Source: Aquisphaera giovannonii (GTDB lineage Bacteria; Planctomycetota; Planctomycetia; Isosphaerales; Isosphaeraceae). Taken from it: a stretch of 64,000 nt of DNA. Below are positions 14,389 through 55,192 of the stretch, piece after piece; the stretch's first letter is position 1; each line of letters begins with the position of its first letter. The notes under the pieces were generated by a model, which made no database searches, had not been told where the DNA came from, and saw only the letters and a list, made by a program, of their open reading frames with translations. A program made the translations under genes and the position numbers. The DNA lies in NCBI RefSeq assembly GCF_008087625.1, contig NZ_CP042997.1, positions 1,674,001 through 1,738,000 on the forward strand, in the 5' to 3' direction.

Positions 14389-15255
14389 AAGGCCGACTCC
14401 GGGCGGCCGCCCGTACCGAACCTCAGCCCGGCAGGCGCCGACCGGCCCGCCTTTCTTCCGAAGACGTGTTGAAGACGCGGCCTCAAGGGCGAGCCCGGTC
14501 CGGGGCTCCTCGTCACCCGAGCGTCTCATCATCGGGGGCCCCCCCCGGAAGGAGGCCGTGCTCACGCCGGTAGGACTTCGGGGGCGAGGCCCCGAACCGC
14601 GAGGCGTGACGGGGTACGAGCTCTCCTCGCCTGCTACGGGTGGCCGCGGCAGAGCCGCAGGCGATGCCGCGGGACCGCCCCGGCCGGCGGGCAGAGCCCG
14701 CGCCGCTCGCGCCGGCGGCGGCGATCCCGTGGCGTCGCTGCGCTTCCGCCACAGCCACCCGGGAGAGGATCGCCGGGCGCTACTCCGGGTGGATGTGGCA
14801 GGGCCGCGGGCGATGCCGCGGGACCGCCCCGGCCCGAGTGCCATTGTCCCCGACGTCGCGCCGACTCGAGGCCACGGCGTCGCGGGAGGGCCCGCACGGC
14901 GAGCCTCGACCGGATTTGCTCCGCGTCCTCACTCCCCCGCCGGTCGGTCAGCCCCGGGCGATCGAGGGAGATCTCGCGCCGCGCGGCCCTCGGAGGTGGA
15001 GGCCTCGACGGCTCCGTGCGGAGGGTCGCCCTCCGGCCCGGCATTCGCCCGCGATAGAGGGCCGAGCCCCGCATATCCCCCCCGACCAGACTTCAGCGCA
15101 TGACGATTCCACGGACAATCGAATTTCTTCACGATTCCGTCTTGATCGACTTTCGACAAAACGCCATTCTCAGATACGTCGTTACTCTGGCTGGAGATGA
15201 CGACTCATTTCCATCTGGACATTTCCTGACCCGACCCAGGAAGGAGTGCGAGACC
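14389..15255. other. Non-coding gap of about 870 bases carrying a dispersed repeat
   Basis: No open frame here has coding character; those present are GC-rich artefacts. The middle holds a repeat shared in inverted orientation with 50250-50459. The last 150 bases (15100-15255) are clearly more AT-rich than the surroundings and probably hold the promoter of the Lys/Ala-rich peptide gene. Confidence 0.6.
14637..14833 (-). repeat. Dispersed palindromic repeat: full unit plus half unit, second copy at 50.3 kb
   Basis: Positions 14637-14762 are the reverse complement of 50333-50459 at roughly 85% by eye. The unit is itself an imperfect palindrome whose outer arms contain GTGGCNGNAGCCGCAG-like blocks. 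Positions 14763-14833 hold a second, half unit (GGGTGGATGTGGCAGGGCC and following), matching a decayed half copy at 50250-50332. The order half unit - spacer - full unit is kept at both loci. Confidence 0.8.
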
Positions 15256-22356: not shown

Positions 22357-22529
22357 CCAAGAAACTGCCGGTGTAAGACCGCCGCGTGATGGAGCGGGTG
22401 CCGGGACGTGGGGAGACGGGCCCTGCGCGAGGACGAGCCGGTCCGGTGCGTCCGCGCCCCGCTTGACGCACCCTACGATTGCAGAAATCGGTACCTGAAC
22501 GTGTCGAGGGACGCAGAGCGGACGACGAA

Positions 22530-48932: not shown

Positions 48933-49180
48933 GATGACTCCGAGGCGAAAGTGGGTCATCCAGCAATATGCCACGCCTCAATTGTCCGCCCTCGGTCGAG
49001 CCCGAGGAAGCCGGCCCGTATTCGGGCCGTGCGATTTCCTTGCTTCTCATCCTGATTGTTGGGCTCGCAACGCGTCCGCTTCTGGCCCGAGCAGGGGCCC
49101 GCGGCTATCATGAGGTCGCGTTGCGTTGATCGCTGTGTTCCGTTTTGTGGTGAACTCATCCCAGGCTCGAAAAGGTGCCG

Positions 49181-50152
49181 ATGGACGCGACATTTCGCCT
49201 CGCCAGAAAAAATCGGAACGTGGGGCTGGGCGGTATTCTCGGGTTCACCGCGGCGCTCGCATTGACGCTCTATGTGGCGTGGACCGACCCGAAGATCCGC
49301 GACCCGCGCCTCCTTGTCGTCTTGGCCGGCGGCTTCTACATGTTCATGACAGGCCTATCGGCATTGCTGCTCGCGAGCTACTATTGTCAGCGATTGATGC
49401 TCCGGGGAGAGCGAGTCCAACTCTTGGGGCTATTCCAGAGTATCGAAGTCGACCTGTGCAGCGTGACCCGGGCCCGGTGGCGGCCCGGAGAACTGACCTT
49501 GTGGGATAACTCGACGAGGCTGACGATCGACTTCCGGGTCTATCAGTGGAGTCGCGAGGAGCGGGACGAGTTGATCCGAGTTGTGCGTTCCGCGCTCGAC
49601 CCGGAGATTCAGACGGGCTGGGACCTCTTCGCCTACAAGATGGGCTACGGCCTGCCGCGAAGACCTCCCGGGGAACCCGGTCCGGCCGAGGTCCTCCTGA
49701 CTCGAAGCCTCTGGACGCGCTACTTCCTGCCGCTCGTCATCCTGGCAGTCGTCGGCGGCGTGACTGCCTGGAGGCTCACGGGGAATCCTCGCTTTCTGAC
49801 CGCCCCGTCTGCACCCCTGCTCCTCTGGGGAGTTCTGCGATATACGACCCCGGCCGAGGGGATCGTCTCGTCGAAGATACATGCCCGTTCTGTGAAGGAC
49901 GCCGGACGATTCCTGGTCTTCCTCCTGGTCTGGGGAACCGTCGGAATCGCGGCCATCATATGGGCATCTTGGCCTGGCTGGGAGAACCAGCCTATCCCGT
50001 TTATCGTGACCTTGGTCATCTGGATGTCGGTCCTCCTCTACGAGGCCGCCCGGGAGGACCGCCGCACCGCTCGCCGCGACCGCGAGGCCGCGGAACTTGC
50101 CGCCAAGGCCCGCGGCGAGCGAGGGAGGCAGGAGGTTGGGGTCCTGGAATGA
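49181..50152 (+). CDS. Unknown membrane protein
   Basis: 323 residues with about four hydrophobic segments: two near the N-terminus (LGGILGFTAALALTLYVAW and LVVLAGGFYMFMTGLSALLL), then around 185-215, and 240-285. Between them a beta-rich domain (LTLWDNSTRLTIDFRVYQW) could be PH-like. No family recognised. It is less GC-rich than its neighbours. Its stop codon TGA is part of the target duplication of the MITE-like element that follows, so the insertion has just spared the gene. Confidence 0.75.
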   Translation: MDATFRLARKNRNVGLGGILGFTAALALTLYVAWTDPKIRDPRLLVVLAGGFYMFMTGLSALLLASYYCQRLMLRGERVQLLGLFQSIEVDLCSVTRARWRPGELTLWDNSTRLTIDFRVYQWSREERDELIRVVRSALDPEIQTGWDLFAYKMGYGLPRRPPGEPGPAEVLLTRSLWTRYFLPLVILAVVGGVTAWRLTGNPRFLTAPSAPLLLWGVLRYTTPAEGIVSSKIHARSVKDAGRFLVFLLVWGTVGIAAIIWASWPGWENQPIPFIVTLVIWMSVLLYEAAREDRRTARRDREAAELAAKARGERGRQEVGVLE

Positions 50153-50156
50153 ATAC

Positions 50157-50525
50157 GGCTCATCCGGCGGAAGCGCGCGCCGTCCGGGCCCTGCCGCGAC
50201 GCCACGGCCGGTCGGGCCGGCGCGACGGCCAAGGCATGGGTCGCGCCACTGGGCGGTCCCGCGGGGCCGCCTCCGACTCTGCCGCGACCACCCGGGGCGA
50301 CGCCCGGCGTAGCACCCTTCGGGCGAGGCCGTCCGGGTGGCTGTGGCGGAAGCGCAGCGACGCCACGGGATCGGCGCCGACGGCGCGAACGGCGCGGGCC
50401 CGCCCGGAAGGCCCGGGCGATCCCGTGGCATCGCCTGCGGCTCTGCCACAGCCACCCGGAGGGTCGGTGATCTCGACTCCGATCGTCCCCTCCCACGCCG
50501 GGCGCGCGCTTCAGCCGGATGAACC
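50157..50525. mobile_element. MITE-like non-coding element with terminal inverted repeats
   Basis: 369 bases. The outer 25 bases (50157-50181) and the reverse complement of 50501-50525 agree at 23 of 25 positions (GGCTCATCCGGCGGAAGCGC start). ATGAATAC stands directly outside both ends (50149-50156 and 50526-50533), an 8-bp target duplication. No transposase is encoded. The inside holds the palindromic unit shared with 14.6 kb. The remaining bases to 50552 hold no gene. Confidence 0.8.
50250..50459 (+). repeat. Dispersed palindromic repeat, second locus
   Basis: The unit 50333-50459 is an imperfect palindrome: arms 50333-50373 and 50418-50459 pair at about 80%. It is the inverted copy of 14637-14762. 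A decayed half unit is at 50250-50332. Confidence 0.8.
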
Positions 50526-50552
50526 ATGAATACGTCCAGTCTGCGGGCCGGC

Positions 50553-52616
50553 TCACCCGTCCGCGGTGGTGTCGGGATAGATCCTGGAGCCGGGGAGCTT
50601 CATGATCCGGGCGGCCAGCCTGCGGAATCCGCCGTTTCGCGAAATGACGAGGACCTGGCCCGGCAGCTCCATACGGCGGCTGAGCTGCTGGACCAGGACG
50701 CGGCCAGGCTCGTCCCCGAGGCCCCAGCGAAAGGCCTTGCCGCCGAGGCAGAGGACGAAGAGGGGCCGGCGGGGGAGGGATCGCAGCCGCTTGCGGGCGA
50801 GCCAGGCCCCGGCGCAGGTGGGCTGGGCCGCGAGCAGGGCGAGCAGCGGGGCCAGGGCGTCGTCATCGAGGCCGTGGGGGAGGAAGTCATCGGACGGCCC
50901 GACCGAGGCGCGCTCGAGGCGGTCGCCCTCGACGGCGGCCTCGTGCGCGTCCAGGCGGGCGCGGACCTCGCGGAGGCGATCCGCCCGGCCCGTCTCCCGG
51001 TAGTGGGCGGCGAGGAGCTCGCAGGCCGTCTTCATCCAGTTCTCGTCGGCGTCGTCGACGACCCGCAGGAGCAATCGCTCGCCCCCCGCGTCGCCCAGGC
51101 GGAGGCGGCAGTGGCCCAGCATGACGGTCCCGCCGACGTGGTCCGGGGCATGCCGGAGCAGCTCCTCGAGGATGGGGACGGCGGCGTCCGGCCCGCGATG
51201 GTCGGCCGACTCGCGGGCGCGGTCCCACAGGGCGGCGATCGCGGCCGCGGAAAGGGGCGAGGGGCCGGGATCGCCGGCGTCCGCCCCCGGAGTCTCCTCG
51301 GGCTCCGCCCTCGCGGCGGGATCGTCGGCCGGCGGGATCGCCGCCGGGGCCCCTGCCGCCGAGGAGGCCGCCGGAGTCGCCGCCGCGATGGGACTCGCCT
51401 CCGGCCTCGACGCCCTCCTGGCCTCGGCGGCGGCCCAGCGGTGGCGATCGCGCCAGGAGGCCCGGGCGGACCGTCGCCATTCCTCCGCGAGCTCGCGCTC
51501 GATCGCCGGCAGCGTCGCGCCGATCAGGGACGCGGCCGAGGGCTCCGCCGCGGCGGGGAAGCCCGCCTCCCGGAGCCGCTCCCGATCCTGCCCGAGGGCC
51601 CGGAGCCGCTCGGGGAGGGCCGGGTGGCTGCTGTCGATGGCGGTCAACTGGGCGAGCGCACGCCCGATCCAGCGGGCCGCGTCGGCGGGCGACGGGGCGA
51701 CCGGGATGGCGAGCCGCAGCCGATCGAAGAGGTCATCGGGCGGCTCGGGCATCTCGCCGGCGAGCCCGTGGAGGTCGGGCCAGAACCGCTCGGAGATCCA
51801 CTCGCCGCGGCACTCGGTCCGCCAGAGGGCCCCGGCCATGACCCCCGCGCCGGCGACCTCCGCCCCGACCCGGTCGGCGTGGAACTCGTGGAGCCGGGAC
51901 AGGACGACGGCCCTCGCGTGGAGCCGCGGCCAGTACCAGCCCAGGAACCGCATCACGGCGCCGCGGACCGTGCCGTCCAGGGCCCCCGTGATCGGCGACT
52001 GCATGCGCCCGACCGCGTGGCACCACGCGCGGTGGAGGCGATAGATCCGGCCGTTCCTCATCCCGTGCCGGGCCGAGAGGTGGGCGAACTCGTGCGCGAA
52101 GATCGACCGCAGCTCGTCGGGCGAGAGGACCATGGCCAGGGGCAGGCCGATCTCGAGCGTCGAGCGGCCGAGCCCCAGGAAGCCCAGGCGGGGCACGTCG
52201 AGGACGCTCGCGTTGTAGGCGAGGGAGACGCGGATCTCGTCGAAGGGGCGGCAGTCGAGCCGCCGTCGCAGCTCGTCCAGCATGGCCCGCAGCTCGGGCG
52301 CCTCGCCCGGGCCCAGGAGGTGGCCCTGCCGGGGGGTCGGCTCGGCGAGGAGCAGGAAGCCGGCCTGGGAGAAGCAGTAGGCGAGCAGCCCCGCCCCCAG
52401 GGCCAGCAGCACGATCGCCGCGCCGGCCTCCGCCGCGACGACCACCCCCAGCACGCAGAGCGCGACGCCGCCGCCGAGCAGCCCCGCGATCCAGGACAGG
52501 AGCGCCCCCCGCCCGATCCGCACCCAGCGCACGACGGCCCGCTCCAGCGCCCGCGGACGGCCGGCGTAGCGGGCCTCCACCCATCTCACCAGGTCGTCGA
52601 AGGCCTCTCGCTTCAT
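50553..52616 (-). CDS. M48-type membrane zinc metallopeptidase with C-terminal TPR-like region
   Basis: 687 residues. Two hydrophobic segments at about 38-62 and 66-92 are followed by a peptidase M48 (HtpX/Ste24-like) domain: HEFAH at 175-179 and EFHAD at 244-248 as third zinc ligand. A long Ala/Pro-rich linker (about 415-470) leads to a helical region with WDRARESADHRGPDAAVPIL and a C-terminal beta-rich end. It probably degrades membrane or periplasmic proteins. Its start overlaps the stop of the upstream TPR gene (ATGA at 52613-52616), so both are made together. Confidence 0.85.
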   Translation of the reverse strand: MKREAFDDLVRWVEARYAGRPRALERAVVRWVRIGRGALLSWIAGLLGGGVALCVLGVVVAAEAGAAIVLLALGAGLLAYCFSQAGFLLLAEPTPRQGHLLGPGEAPELRAMLDELRRRLDCRPFDEIRVSLAYNASVLDVPRLGFLGLGRSTLEIGLPLAMVLSPDELRSIFAHEFAHLSARHGMRNGRIYRLHRAWCHAVGRMQSPITGALDGTVRGAVMRFLGWYWPRLHARAVVLSRLHEFHADRVGAEVAGAGVMAGALWRTECRGEWISERFWPDLHGLAGEMPEPPDDLFDRLRLAIPVAPSPADAARWIGRALAQLTAIDSSHPALPERLRALGQDRERLREAGFPAAAEPSAASLIGATLPAIERELAEEWRRSARASWRDRHRWAAAEARRASRPEASPIAAATPAASSAAGAPAAIPPADDPAARAEPEETPGADAGDPGPSPLSAAAIAALWDRARESADHRGPDAAVPILEELLRHAPDHVGGTVMLGHCRLRLGDAGGERLLLRVVDDADENWMKTACELLAAHYRETGRADRLREVRARLDAHEAAVEGDRLERASVGPSDDFLPHGLDDDALAPLLALLAAQPTCAGAWLARKRLRSLPRRPLFVLCLGGKAFRWGLGDEPGRVLVQQLSRRMELPGQVLVISRNGGFRRLAARIMKLPGSRIYPDTTADG

Positions 52617-55192
52617 GGCCTCTCCGCGACGCCCCCCCGCTCGACGGCCCGCTTCACCAGCAGGTACGGCGGCCTGCGGAGCACGTTGAACCGCGCGGCC
52701 GCCCCGAGATACTCGGCCCGCTTCGCGGGGAAACGCGTGGCGAGGTCGCACAGGAGCAGGGCCTTGTTGTCCACGTCGGTGCTGTTCCGCAGGACGTCGG
52801 CGATCGCCGGCGGGGCGGTCGCGTCCAGGATCCGCGCTTCGTTCTCCTGCAGCGTCCCCAGGGAGCCCATCGCCTTGAGGGCGCGCCCGCGCATCTCCGC
52901 GGCCTCCTTCCCGGCCCCCTCGAGTCCCAGCTCGACGCAGGCGGCCATCGCCAGCCAGGGATTCTGCCAGAGCCTCTGGAACGAGGGGTTCGAGGCCGCC
53001 TCCCTGCCCTTGCCGGCGGCCAGGGACGCCTGCAGGCCGATGGGGCTGGCGGCCACCTCCGGGGAGCGGCCCGCCGCCTCCAGGGCCTTCTCGGGATGGC
53101 CCGCCTGGTACTCCGCGAGCGCCCGGACCGTCGGGACGAGGCCCGCCTGCGACACGGCCTGGGCGGGAAGGCGCGCGATCCACGCCTGCAGCTCCGGGCC
53201 GATCCGATCCGCCTCGCCGGAGGCGGCCAGGGCGTCGAAGAGCCGGGACAGGATGGCGAAGTTCATCGGCTCGGCCGCCAGGGCGGAGCGATACTCGGCG
53301 ACGAGCGCCTTGGCCTCGCCGCGGCCCAGGCGGGCGACGTGGAAGGCGTCGCGGAAGGTGTCCTCCGGGATCCCGAGCTCCCTGGCCTTGCGGATGCCGT
53401 CCAGGCCCTCGTCCCATCGGCCCTCGGAGACGGCCTGCATCCCGAGGGCGAACCAGGACCAGGGGAACTTCGGGTCGGCCTTCAAGGCTCGCCTGAAATG
53501 CGCCTCCCGGCGTGCGATGTCCGGGTCGATCCGGCCTCGCAGGTAGATCAGGCCGGCGTCCTCGGGATCCGCGGCCAGGGCCGCGTCGTAGCGGGCGATC
53601 AGCTCCTTGCCGCGGCCCGACGCCTCGGCCGCCGCCTGGTACGCGCGGTGCCAGAAGACGTCGACGGGCCGGCGGTCGAGCCCGGACTCCAGGAACGCAT
53701 CCACCCGCGCCACCTCGCCGGCGGCCGCCTGCTGGACGTACTCCTGGAGCAGCTCATGGTCCTCGGGATGGGCGCGGAGCTGGGCCTCGGCGTAGCTCAT
53801 GGCGTCGGCCCGGTCCCCCCGGGCCAGGAGGGTGGCGAAGAGCTGCGAGGCCGGATCCCGGAGCCAGGTCAGGACCTGCCGGGTCGCGACCGCGGACCGG
53901 CTGCCGACCTCCACCGACTGCGGGGGGGCCTCGAAGGGGTGGTCCACGTGCGGGATGACGAGCACGGGCTTGCCGGCGACCAGCCGGTGGTCGCTCGGGC
54001 GTGGGTCGCTCGCGTAGTACACGGTCGCCTCGTCCAGGACCGCCGCGCCCCCCGCGTTGACCACCCAGGCGGGCTTCTTGAACCAGCGGTCGAGGAACCC
54101 CGAGGTCATGTCCAGCTCGACCGTCTCCCGGATCGGGCCGGTGATCTCGACCCGGTGGCGGCCCTCCCGGGTTGTGAGCTTGCCCAGCCCGTCCACGGTG
54201 GCCGGCGGCCCGCCGTCGATGCTCACCCGGATCGGCGCGCCGATCGCGTCCACGACGTAGAGGGTGCGGTTGCGGCGGATGTACTCGTTGCTGGCGAGGA
54301 GCCCGGCCAGGAGGAGCCCGCCGACGAGCCCCGCCCAGAAGACCCGGCGGACCCAGGCCGGGTGCGGGGAGTCCGCCCCCTTGAAGAGCCCGCGGACGGA
54401 TCCCTCGACGGGGGGCAGGATCGAGGCCGCCGCGCCGAGCGCCTTCTCCGACTTCTTCACGAAGGCCCGGAAGGTGTGCTGCTGCCCGGCGGCCGGGATC
54501 TCCCGGAGCAGGTGCGCGGCGATCTCCAGCGCCTCGGCGTGCCGGCCGGCGTTCTGATAGTAGGAAGAGAGGACGTCGATGGGCCCGAGCGGGTGCTGCT
54601 GGCCGGCGCCGGGGACCTCGAGGAAGTCCAGCAGCGTGCGGGCCCCGTCCAGGTCGCCCTGCGCCATCATCCTTCGCGCGACCCCGACGCGGGCGGCGGG
54701 CAGGTCGGGGTCGATCTCCAGGGCCCTCTCGAAGAGCGGCGTCGCGCCGTGGAAATTCGAGAACTGCTCGAGCTGCTCCCCGAGCCCCGCGTGCAGGCCG
54801 GCGTGCTCGGGGAACTGCTCGATGGCGGCCCGGCGGAATGCGTCGGCCTCCTCGAACTCGCGGAAGCCCATGAGGCTGGCGTGCGCGAGCAGGGCATTCT
54901 CGGGCGACGGGGACCGGCGGTATTCGTCCATGCTCCCGGAGACCTGGAGCTGCTTGTTCGCCTCGTACTTGTCGGCGTCCGCCACGAAGTGCCGCCGGCA
55001 CCGCGGGCATTCGTCCATGATCCGCTTCCGGCCGAGCGGGATGACCGGGATGAAGACGATCACGAACCAGAGCCTCGTGTAGTACGAGGCGAGGGTCCCG
55101 TACTGCTTGCAGGACTGGCAGACCGCGTCCCGCCGGGACACGTTCCGCTTGCCGTAATAGTGCGTGCCGATCCCGTTGACCGTCGTGGGCAT
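52613..55192 (-). CDS. Zn-ribbon, single-pass membrane TPR protein
   Basis: 859 residues. An N-terminal zinc ribbon has CQSCKQYG and CPRCRRHF (about 24-67), with a hydrophobic hairpin WFVIVFIPVIPLG between. TPR repeats occupy about 90-270. A membrane helix follows near 300 (VFWAGLVGGLLLAGLLAS), then a PEGA-like beta part (VVDAIGAPIRVSIDGGPPA), then more TPRs to the end. The protein looks like a scaffold. Its coupling to an M48 peptidase suggests it delivers substrates to or regulates that enzyme. ATG at 55192 (MPTTVNGIG) has GGGGGGA upstream. Confidence 0.8.
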   Translation of the reverse strand: MPTTVNGIGTHYYGKRNVSRRDAVCQSCKQYGTLASYYTRLWFVIVFIPVIPLGRKRIMDECPRCRRHFVADADKYEANKQLQVSGSMDEYRRSPSPENALLAHASLMGFREFEEADAFRRAAIEQFPEHAGLHAGLGEQLEQFSNFHGATPLFERALEIDPDLPAARVGVARRMMAQGDLDGARTLLDFLEVPGAGQQHPLGPIDVLSSYYQNAGRHAEALEIAAHLLREIPAAGQQHTFRAFVKKSEKALGAAASILPPVEGSVRGLFKGADSPHPAWVRRVFWAGLVGGLLLAGLLASNEYIRRNRTLYVVDAIGAPIRVSIDGGPPATVDGLGKLTTREGRHRVEITGPIRETVELDMTSGFLDRWFKKPAWVVNAGGAAVLDEATVYYASDPRPSDHRLVAGKPVLVIPHVDHPFEAPPQSVEVGSRSAVATRQVLTWLRDPASQLFATLLARGDRADAMSYAEAQLRAHPEDHELLQEYVQQAAAGEVARVDAFLESGLDRRPVDVFWHRAYQAAAEASGRGKELIARYDAALAADPEDAGLIYLRGRIDPDIARREAHFRRALKADPKFPWSWFALGMQAVSEGRWDEGLDGIRKARELGIPEDTFRDAFHVARLGRGEAKALVAEYRSALAAEPMNFAILSRLFDALAASGEADRIGPELQAWIARLPAQAVSQAGLVPTVRALAEYQAGHPEKALEAAGRSPEVAASPIGLQASLAAGKGREAASNPSFQRLWQNPWLAMAACVELGLEGAGKEAAEMRGRALKAMGSLGTLQENEARILDATAPPAIADVLRNSTDVDNKALLLCDLATRFPAKRAEYLGAAARFNVLRRPPYLLVKRAVERGGVAERP

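Follow-up and report, generated by a model that had tools for sequence, protein, structure and literature searches.

Judged from its sequence, the 369-bp element at positions 50157-50525 of the window (the whole 64-kb stretch of Aquisphaera giovannonii DNA analysed here) is very likely a non-autonomous MITE of the ISL3 family that carries a REPIN-like repeat as its interior. A sequence-only reading had proposed a MITE-like element at these exact coordinates, and further copies in the genome, a full-length IS that shares its ends and is flanked by an 8-bp duplication, and related elements in a sister species all bear this out.

The element and its insertion site

The features of the locus are as follows.

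49175-50152, forward strand: ORF of 325 aa, putative membrane protein (label from the sequence alone; no NCBIfam match)
50149-50156: left target-site duplication (TSD), ATGAATAC
50157-50525: MITE, without an ORF of recognised function (terminal inverted repeats and TSD; related matches in its own genome)
50157-50181, forward strand: left terminal inverted repeat (TIR)
50193-50302: palindromic unit, a decayed copy (66% to the intact one, from BLAST of the MITE against itself)
50328-50465: intact palindromic unit of two hairpins, REPIN-like (120.6 bits and E 6.7e-17 with covariance model R1; this unit itself belonged to alignment A1, which underlies the model)
50501-50525, reverse strand: right TIR
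50526-50533: right TSD, ATGAATAC
50553-52622, reverse strand: convergent gene (start provisional) with weak HtpX-like metalloprotease similarity, below the family cut-off

The two TIRs, of 25 nt each, are complementary at 23 of 25 positions (92%), just as had been read. The direct repeats of ATGAATAC that flank the MITE, also noticed earlier, match at 8/8 bases, and a G follows both copies as the next base. By chance, any one pair of ends would have an exact 8-bp repeat at its flanks in about 1 of 65,000 cases (4^8). Open reading frames crossing the element are short or are read-through frames of its neighbours, and the ORF list contains no transposase ORF. With TIRs, no transposase ORF, a length under ~500 bp, an 8-bp TSD and multiple copies in the genome, the element has the features by which a MITE is recognised.

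The sequence-only reading had named a lack of further copies as evidence against itself; BLAST of the whole MITE gave 106 matches in its own 10.5-Mb genome, and many of the MITE-related matches are single-ended or decayed. It had also suggested a search for the 25-bp end and for a transposase gene bounded by it. Allowing ≤3 mismatches, this end pattern occurs 26 times in the genome and its reverse, used as a control, once; two of the 26 bound a transposase-bearing IS. Separately, an RNA family search of 49900-50800 gave a sole match, to mir-558, which fell below threshold (22.6 bits against 90) and was rejected.

The left copy of the duplication contains the TGA stop (50150-50152) of the membrane-protein ORF, as first noted. 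The MITE begins four bases past this codon, and because the duplication holds the stop the gene is left undamaged. By arithmetic on the unjoined flanks, removing the MITE and one duplication (377 bp) leaves ~23 bp between the convergent stops. Since the stop is kept, the insertion probably has little effect on either neighbouring gene. Near the MITE we found no promoter- or terminator-like site, and no T-run terminator, so that a role in transcription is unsupported. In G002, taken to be the sister species Aquisphaera insulae, the matches to the flanks of the locus fall on two contigs, C168 and C62: the left-flank match stops at the edge of C168 (alignment to base 2), and the right-flank match on C62 runs from base 311, the preceding ~300 bases having no MITE match. 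The A. insulae contigs therefore break at the locus, and a clean empty site is not readable there.

A full-length ISL3 element with the same ends

An ISL3-family IS of 1359 bp lies at C1:837097-838455, about 886 kb from the MITE on the same chromosome. Both of its ends show 0 mismatches to the 25-bp end pattern and are identical over 25 bp to the right end of the MITE (50501-50525). It is flanked on both sides by the exact 8-bp duplication TTCCGAAT; its intact ends and duplication suggest a recent jump. The IS encodes an intact 404-aa ISL3 transposase (P0001) with a full DDE_Tnp_ISL3 domain (E 1.5e-73), an ISL3 HTH and an ISL3 zinc ribbon, scoring 334.9 bits against the NCBIfam ISL3 transposase (cut-off 180). 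Eight-base duplications had been taken to point to a specific transposase family, which was right in effect, the IS with the same ends being of the ISL3 family. The accompanying claim that this transposase is absent holds for the window, which contains 0 of the 6 PF01610 matches in the genome, but not for the genome, where this is the only full-length IS of the MITE's end type. A further ISL3 transposase gene, more distantly related (30% identity; C1:839396-840454), lies beside the IS on the opposite strand, and the IS itself appears to interrupt an ORF (C1:836846-838456 onward).

The GG-starting inverted ends, the 8-bp duplication and, in its own IS, the transposase domains are those of the ISL3 family, whereas the window MITE lacks a transposase gene and has an interior that is not related to the IS. 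ISL3 MITEs are a known kind: in the part of the Microcystis aeruginosa report drawn on here, a 187-bp MITE has ISL3-type ends (GGCTCTTCG), 8-nt direct repeats and a stem-loop (PMC11448079). The Aquisphaera element is likewise non-coding, with ISL3-like ends, 8-nt direct repeats and a stem-loop; it differs in sequence, and that part of the report mentions no REPIN-like units (PMC11448079).

P0001 has a match at E <= 1e-30 in 15/45 family genomes (its own, G000, counted), the best outside its own genome being in A. insulae, where a related IS encodes a protein 85% identical. The end pattern has 62 matches in A. insulae against 5 for the control, and is at control level in most other relatives. 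We scanned 20 stretches for paired ends, 17 from A. insulae and 1 each from G016, G050 and G057, allowing ≤2 mismatches in the duplication. Nine of the 20 were positive (4 exact duplications, 3 with one mismatch, 2 with two); in the other 11 no pair was found, some being cut by contig ends. Exact duplications flank two A. insulae MITEs of 316 and 315 bp (CCGAATTC, TAAAAACA), a 515-bp A. insulae MITE (GTTTTTGT) and an IS in G016 (GGAAATCT). Among 11 named relatives, exact duplications occur in 2, a Singulisphaera MAG, whose IS is probably the same as that of G016, and Aporhodopirellula (GGGCTTTT). Five of the 11 have both ends but no exact duplication, including A. insulae (IS duplication matching at 5/8) and Singulisphaera acidiphila (1/8), and in 4/11 examined there was no end pair.

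The palindromic interior and its distribution

The inside of the element had been described as GC-rich palindromes. Its GC content (79%) and its strong folding (z -7.0 against shuffles; 0/100 shuffles as good) agree with this, but the palindromes are not mere filler: they belong to a separate repeat family, whose unit of ~135 bp consists of two hairpins facing each other. We compared two folds on an alignment of 52 units (A1; 45 from its own genome and 7 from A. insulae), one a long hairpin and the other a clover, in which an outer and a middle stem accompany two separate hairpins. The clover has 36 cells with compensated changes against 15.3 in shuffles, a value reached by 0/500 shuffles, and a covariation score above all shuffles, whereas the long hairpin has 11 compensated cells against 10.4 shuffled. 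Clover pairs showing any compensated change number 6, not above shuffles (6.5), and the double changes sit at A1 column pairs 20-35, 101-124 and 105-120. Changes on the same branch number 3, 4 and 3 at the three informative clover pairs, against 0.71, 0.41 and 0.34 expected, and 0, 0, 1 and 0 at four long-hairpin pairs; the tree for this test omitted the six clover columns tested, and as a short-repeat tree is rough and the expectation was equal for all branches, its p values are a guide only. The automatic RNAalifold consensus of the unit was a weak mixed structure (-12.5 kcal/mol) with no compensated pair, and both folds were written down from the sequence after it, so that the choice of the clover was not independent of the alignment. 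The compensatory changes support the two-hairpin clover, not the long hairpin.

Two inverted REP-like hairpins whose structure is kept by compensatory change are what characterises a REPIN, and the interior unit has both (we use the labels REP, REPIN and GTAG after the relevant parts of PMC3733652 and PMC3116915). As in REPINs and BIMEs, a spacer separates the hairpins; the Aquisphaera unit differs in being larger (~135 bp), in lacking a GTAG tag or a flanking RAYT, and in being nested in a DDE-type MITE, as far as the portion of that account used here goes (PMC3116915). No GTAG tag stands next to the unit stem, whose consensus in alignment A1 is CCGGGTGGCTGTGGCGG. In Anabaena variabilis and H. 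neapolitanus, REP dimers lie inside longer palindromes, so that there too a second palindrome encloses REP pairs; in the sections concerned, that outer palindrome has no tie to an insertion sequence, whereas the one in Aquisphaera consists of ISL3 ends (PMC3733652).

With the covariance model we obtained 136 matches in its own genome, which reduce to 105 places, in 81 clusters, once opposite-strand matches of one place are merged; there are at least this many places, because 150 of the 35,326 candidates from the first look were scored with the model. An ISL3 end in the correct orientation (≤4/22 mismatches, within 250 bp) is present at 35/162 cluster ends, and one in the wrong orientation at 0/162. 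At least one end is found in 26/81 clusters and both in 9/81; none is found in 55/81, some of which may be decayed MITEs. The best-scoring unit overall (C1:6306522) has no such end. Among the 9 two-ended clusters the duplication is exact in 1 (the window MITE), matches at 7/8 in 2 and is unmatched in 6. A second copy of the unit family lies in the window at 14630-14904 (C1:1688630-1688904), without recognisable ISL3 ends. Another palindromic repeat, with GGAGCCGGCTCC cores, occurs at C1:5102000-5102550 and 5532850-5533400.

Clusters without ends lie between divergent genes in 1/38 cases and end-bearing ones in 7/23 (classified intergenic clusters; Fisher p 0.003); the gene orientations come from a crude caller based on codon scores, which overlooked the metalloprotease gene next to the MITE. 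Among the end-bearing clusters no orientation is favoured (8 convergent, 8 tandem, 7 divergent, 3 unknown). The unit was found in 2/45 family genomes at E <= 1e-6 and, at E <= 1e-3, in 4/40 relatives, two of them by a single weak match. As far as the family genomes were searched, it appears confined to the genus Aquisphaera; given the matches to P0001 in 15/45 genomes, the IS is more widely spread than the unit.

Other repeats fill the same ends. In A. insulae, ISL3 ends enclose a pair of GTAG-tagged, REP-like GTAGGGTGYGTCAAGCG hairpins in the 315-316-bp MITEs and a palindrome with CCCCCTTACCAAGG in a 339-bp element, elements of 515-589 bp are fusions of these two kinds, and units of the window type lie between ISL3 ends in a 388-bp element and probably also in one of 364 bp. 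The GTAG repeat has 53 sites in the A. giovannonii genome (control 0), and at 0 of the 30 of these 53 examined is it bounded by ISL3 ends (best 6/22 mismatches); nesting of the GTAG pair in MITEs is thus seen only in A. insulae. One GTAG-tagged REP-like hairpin lies in the window on the reverse strand (22445-22476, C1:1696445-1696476; 2 mismatches to the pattern).

The genome has six Y1_Tnp genes. One of them, RAYT-like, at C1:510890-511731, has GTAGGGTGCGT GTAG hairpins on both sides and is likely a planctomycete RAYT with its REPs. A RAYT or Y1_Tnp gene flanked on both sides by the interior unit was found at 0/16 loci in its own genome and A. insulae; in A. insulae the distance between one unit and one RAYT is ~700 bp. 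No transposase for the unit was found. In A. insulae a dense irregular array of the short repeat CCCCTTATCGCCCT adjoins a Y1_Tnp gene (G002:C46:31999-32599).

Origin of the element and its meaning

We infer that the enzyme encoded by the IS, or by a relative since lost, moved the MITE: this ISL3 transposase would have recognised the 25-bp ends, and the 369-bp element would have inserted into ATGAATAC, duplicating 8 bases. The two-hairpin repeat, in its intact and decayed copies, would have been carried along as the MITE spread, an order of events for the interior unit and the ends that is pieced together from the letters. The effect on the protein would likely be none. The ~23-bp gap between the convergent stops would have become 400 bp that contain a highly stable hairpin and may keep the two convergent transcripts apart.

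The palindromic unit might instead be the main mobile thing, a REPIN-like sequence that entered a plain MITE or picks palindromic targets, with a RAYT-type HUH transposase acting in trans. We regard this as possible though clearly the less likely account, because it is the TIRs that the exact 8-bp duplication flanks, which makes the last jump at the window site one of the ISL3 type, and because neither a GTAG tag on the unit nor, at the 16 loci in its own genome and A. insulae, a RAYT gene with the unit on both sides was found. What speaks for it is that units without TIRs are common (55/81 clusters) and, on crude gene calls, scarce between divergent genes, that the units fold in a REPIN-like way with covariation favouring the clover, that Y1_Tnp genes are present, and that some stand-alone units seem, when read by eye, to sit inside other palindromic repeats such as that with GGAGCCGGCTCC cores.

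It is improbable that the element is a selected, domesticated terminator or mRNA-stabilising hairpin and not a selfish insertion: it does lie between convergent genes whose stops were originally ~23 bp apart, and 27/81 unit clusters have predicted convergent genes on either side, but the TIR-bearing copies have no orientation preference, no T-run terminator was found near the MITE, and comparison with A. insulae did not show the site to be conserved. High GC yields many short inverted repeats, 40 pairs being listed, yet a chance inverted repeat is hardly credible in view of the 26 end matches against 1 in the control, the identical ends on the IS and the folding control (0/100 shuffles). An ISL3-family MITE with a REPIN-like interior is thus the reading we prefer.

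An ISL3 MITE as such belongs to a described kind; less usual is that its body is a REPIN-like repeat and that one set of ends encloses several unrelated REP-type palindromes, namely the GGGTGGC unit, the GTAG-tagged pair and the CCCCCTTACCAAGG palindrome, all inside the same 25-bp ends. REP-type repeats are normally moved by single-strand HUH enzymes. We tentatively suggest that the ISL3-type MITEs of Aquisphaera could be carriers that give HUH-moved REPIN-like palindromes a second, double-strand route, or that the palindrome helps the ends meet. An orphan-looking MITE is here connected with its probable enzyme, encoded on the same chromosome, which makes a compact two-part system, and two classes of bacterial miniature DNA are nested in each other. 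Moreover, the compensatory changes speak, at the level of sequence, for a REPIN-like unit being maintained as two separate hairpins and not as a single long one, as hypothesised in the REPIN paper, where the legend of figure S11, in the part available, gives the clover as the form that a RAYT might use (PMC3116915).
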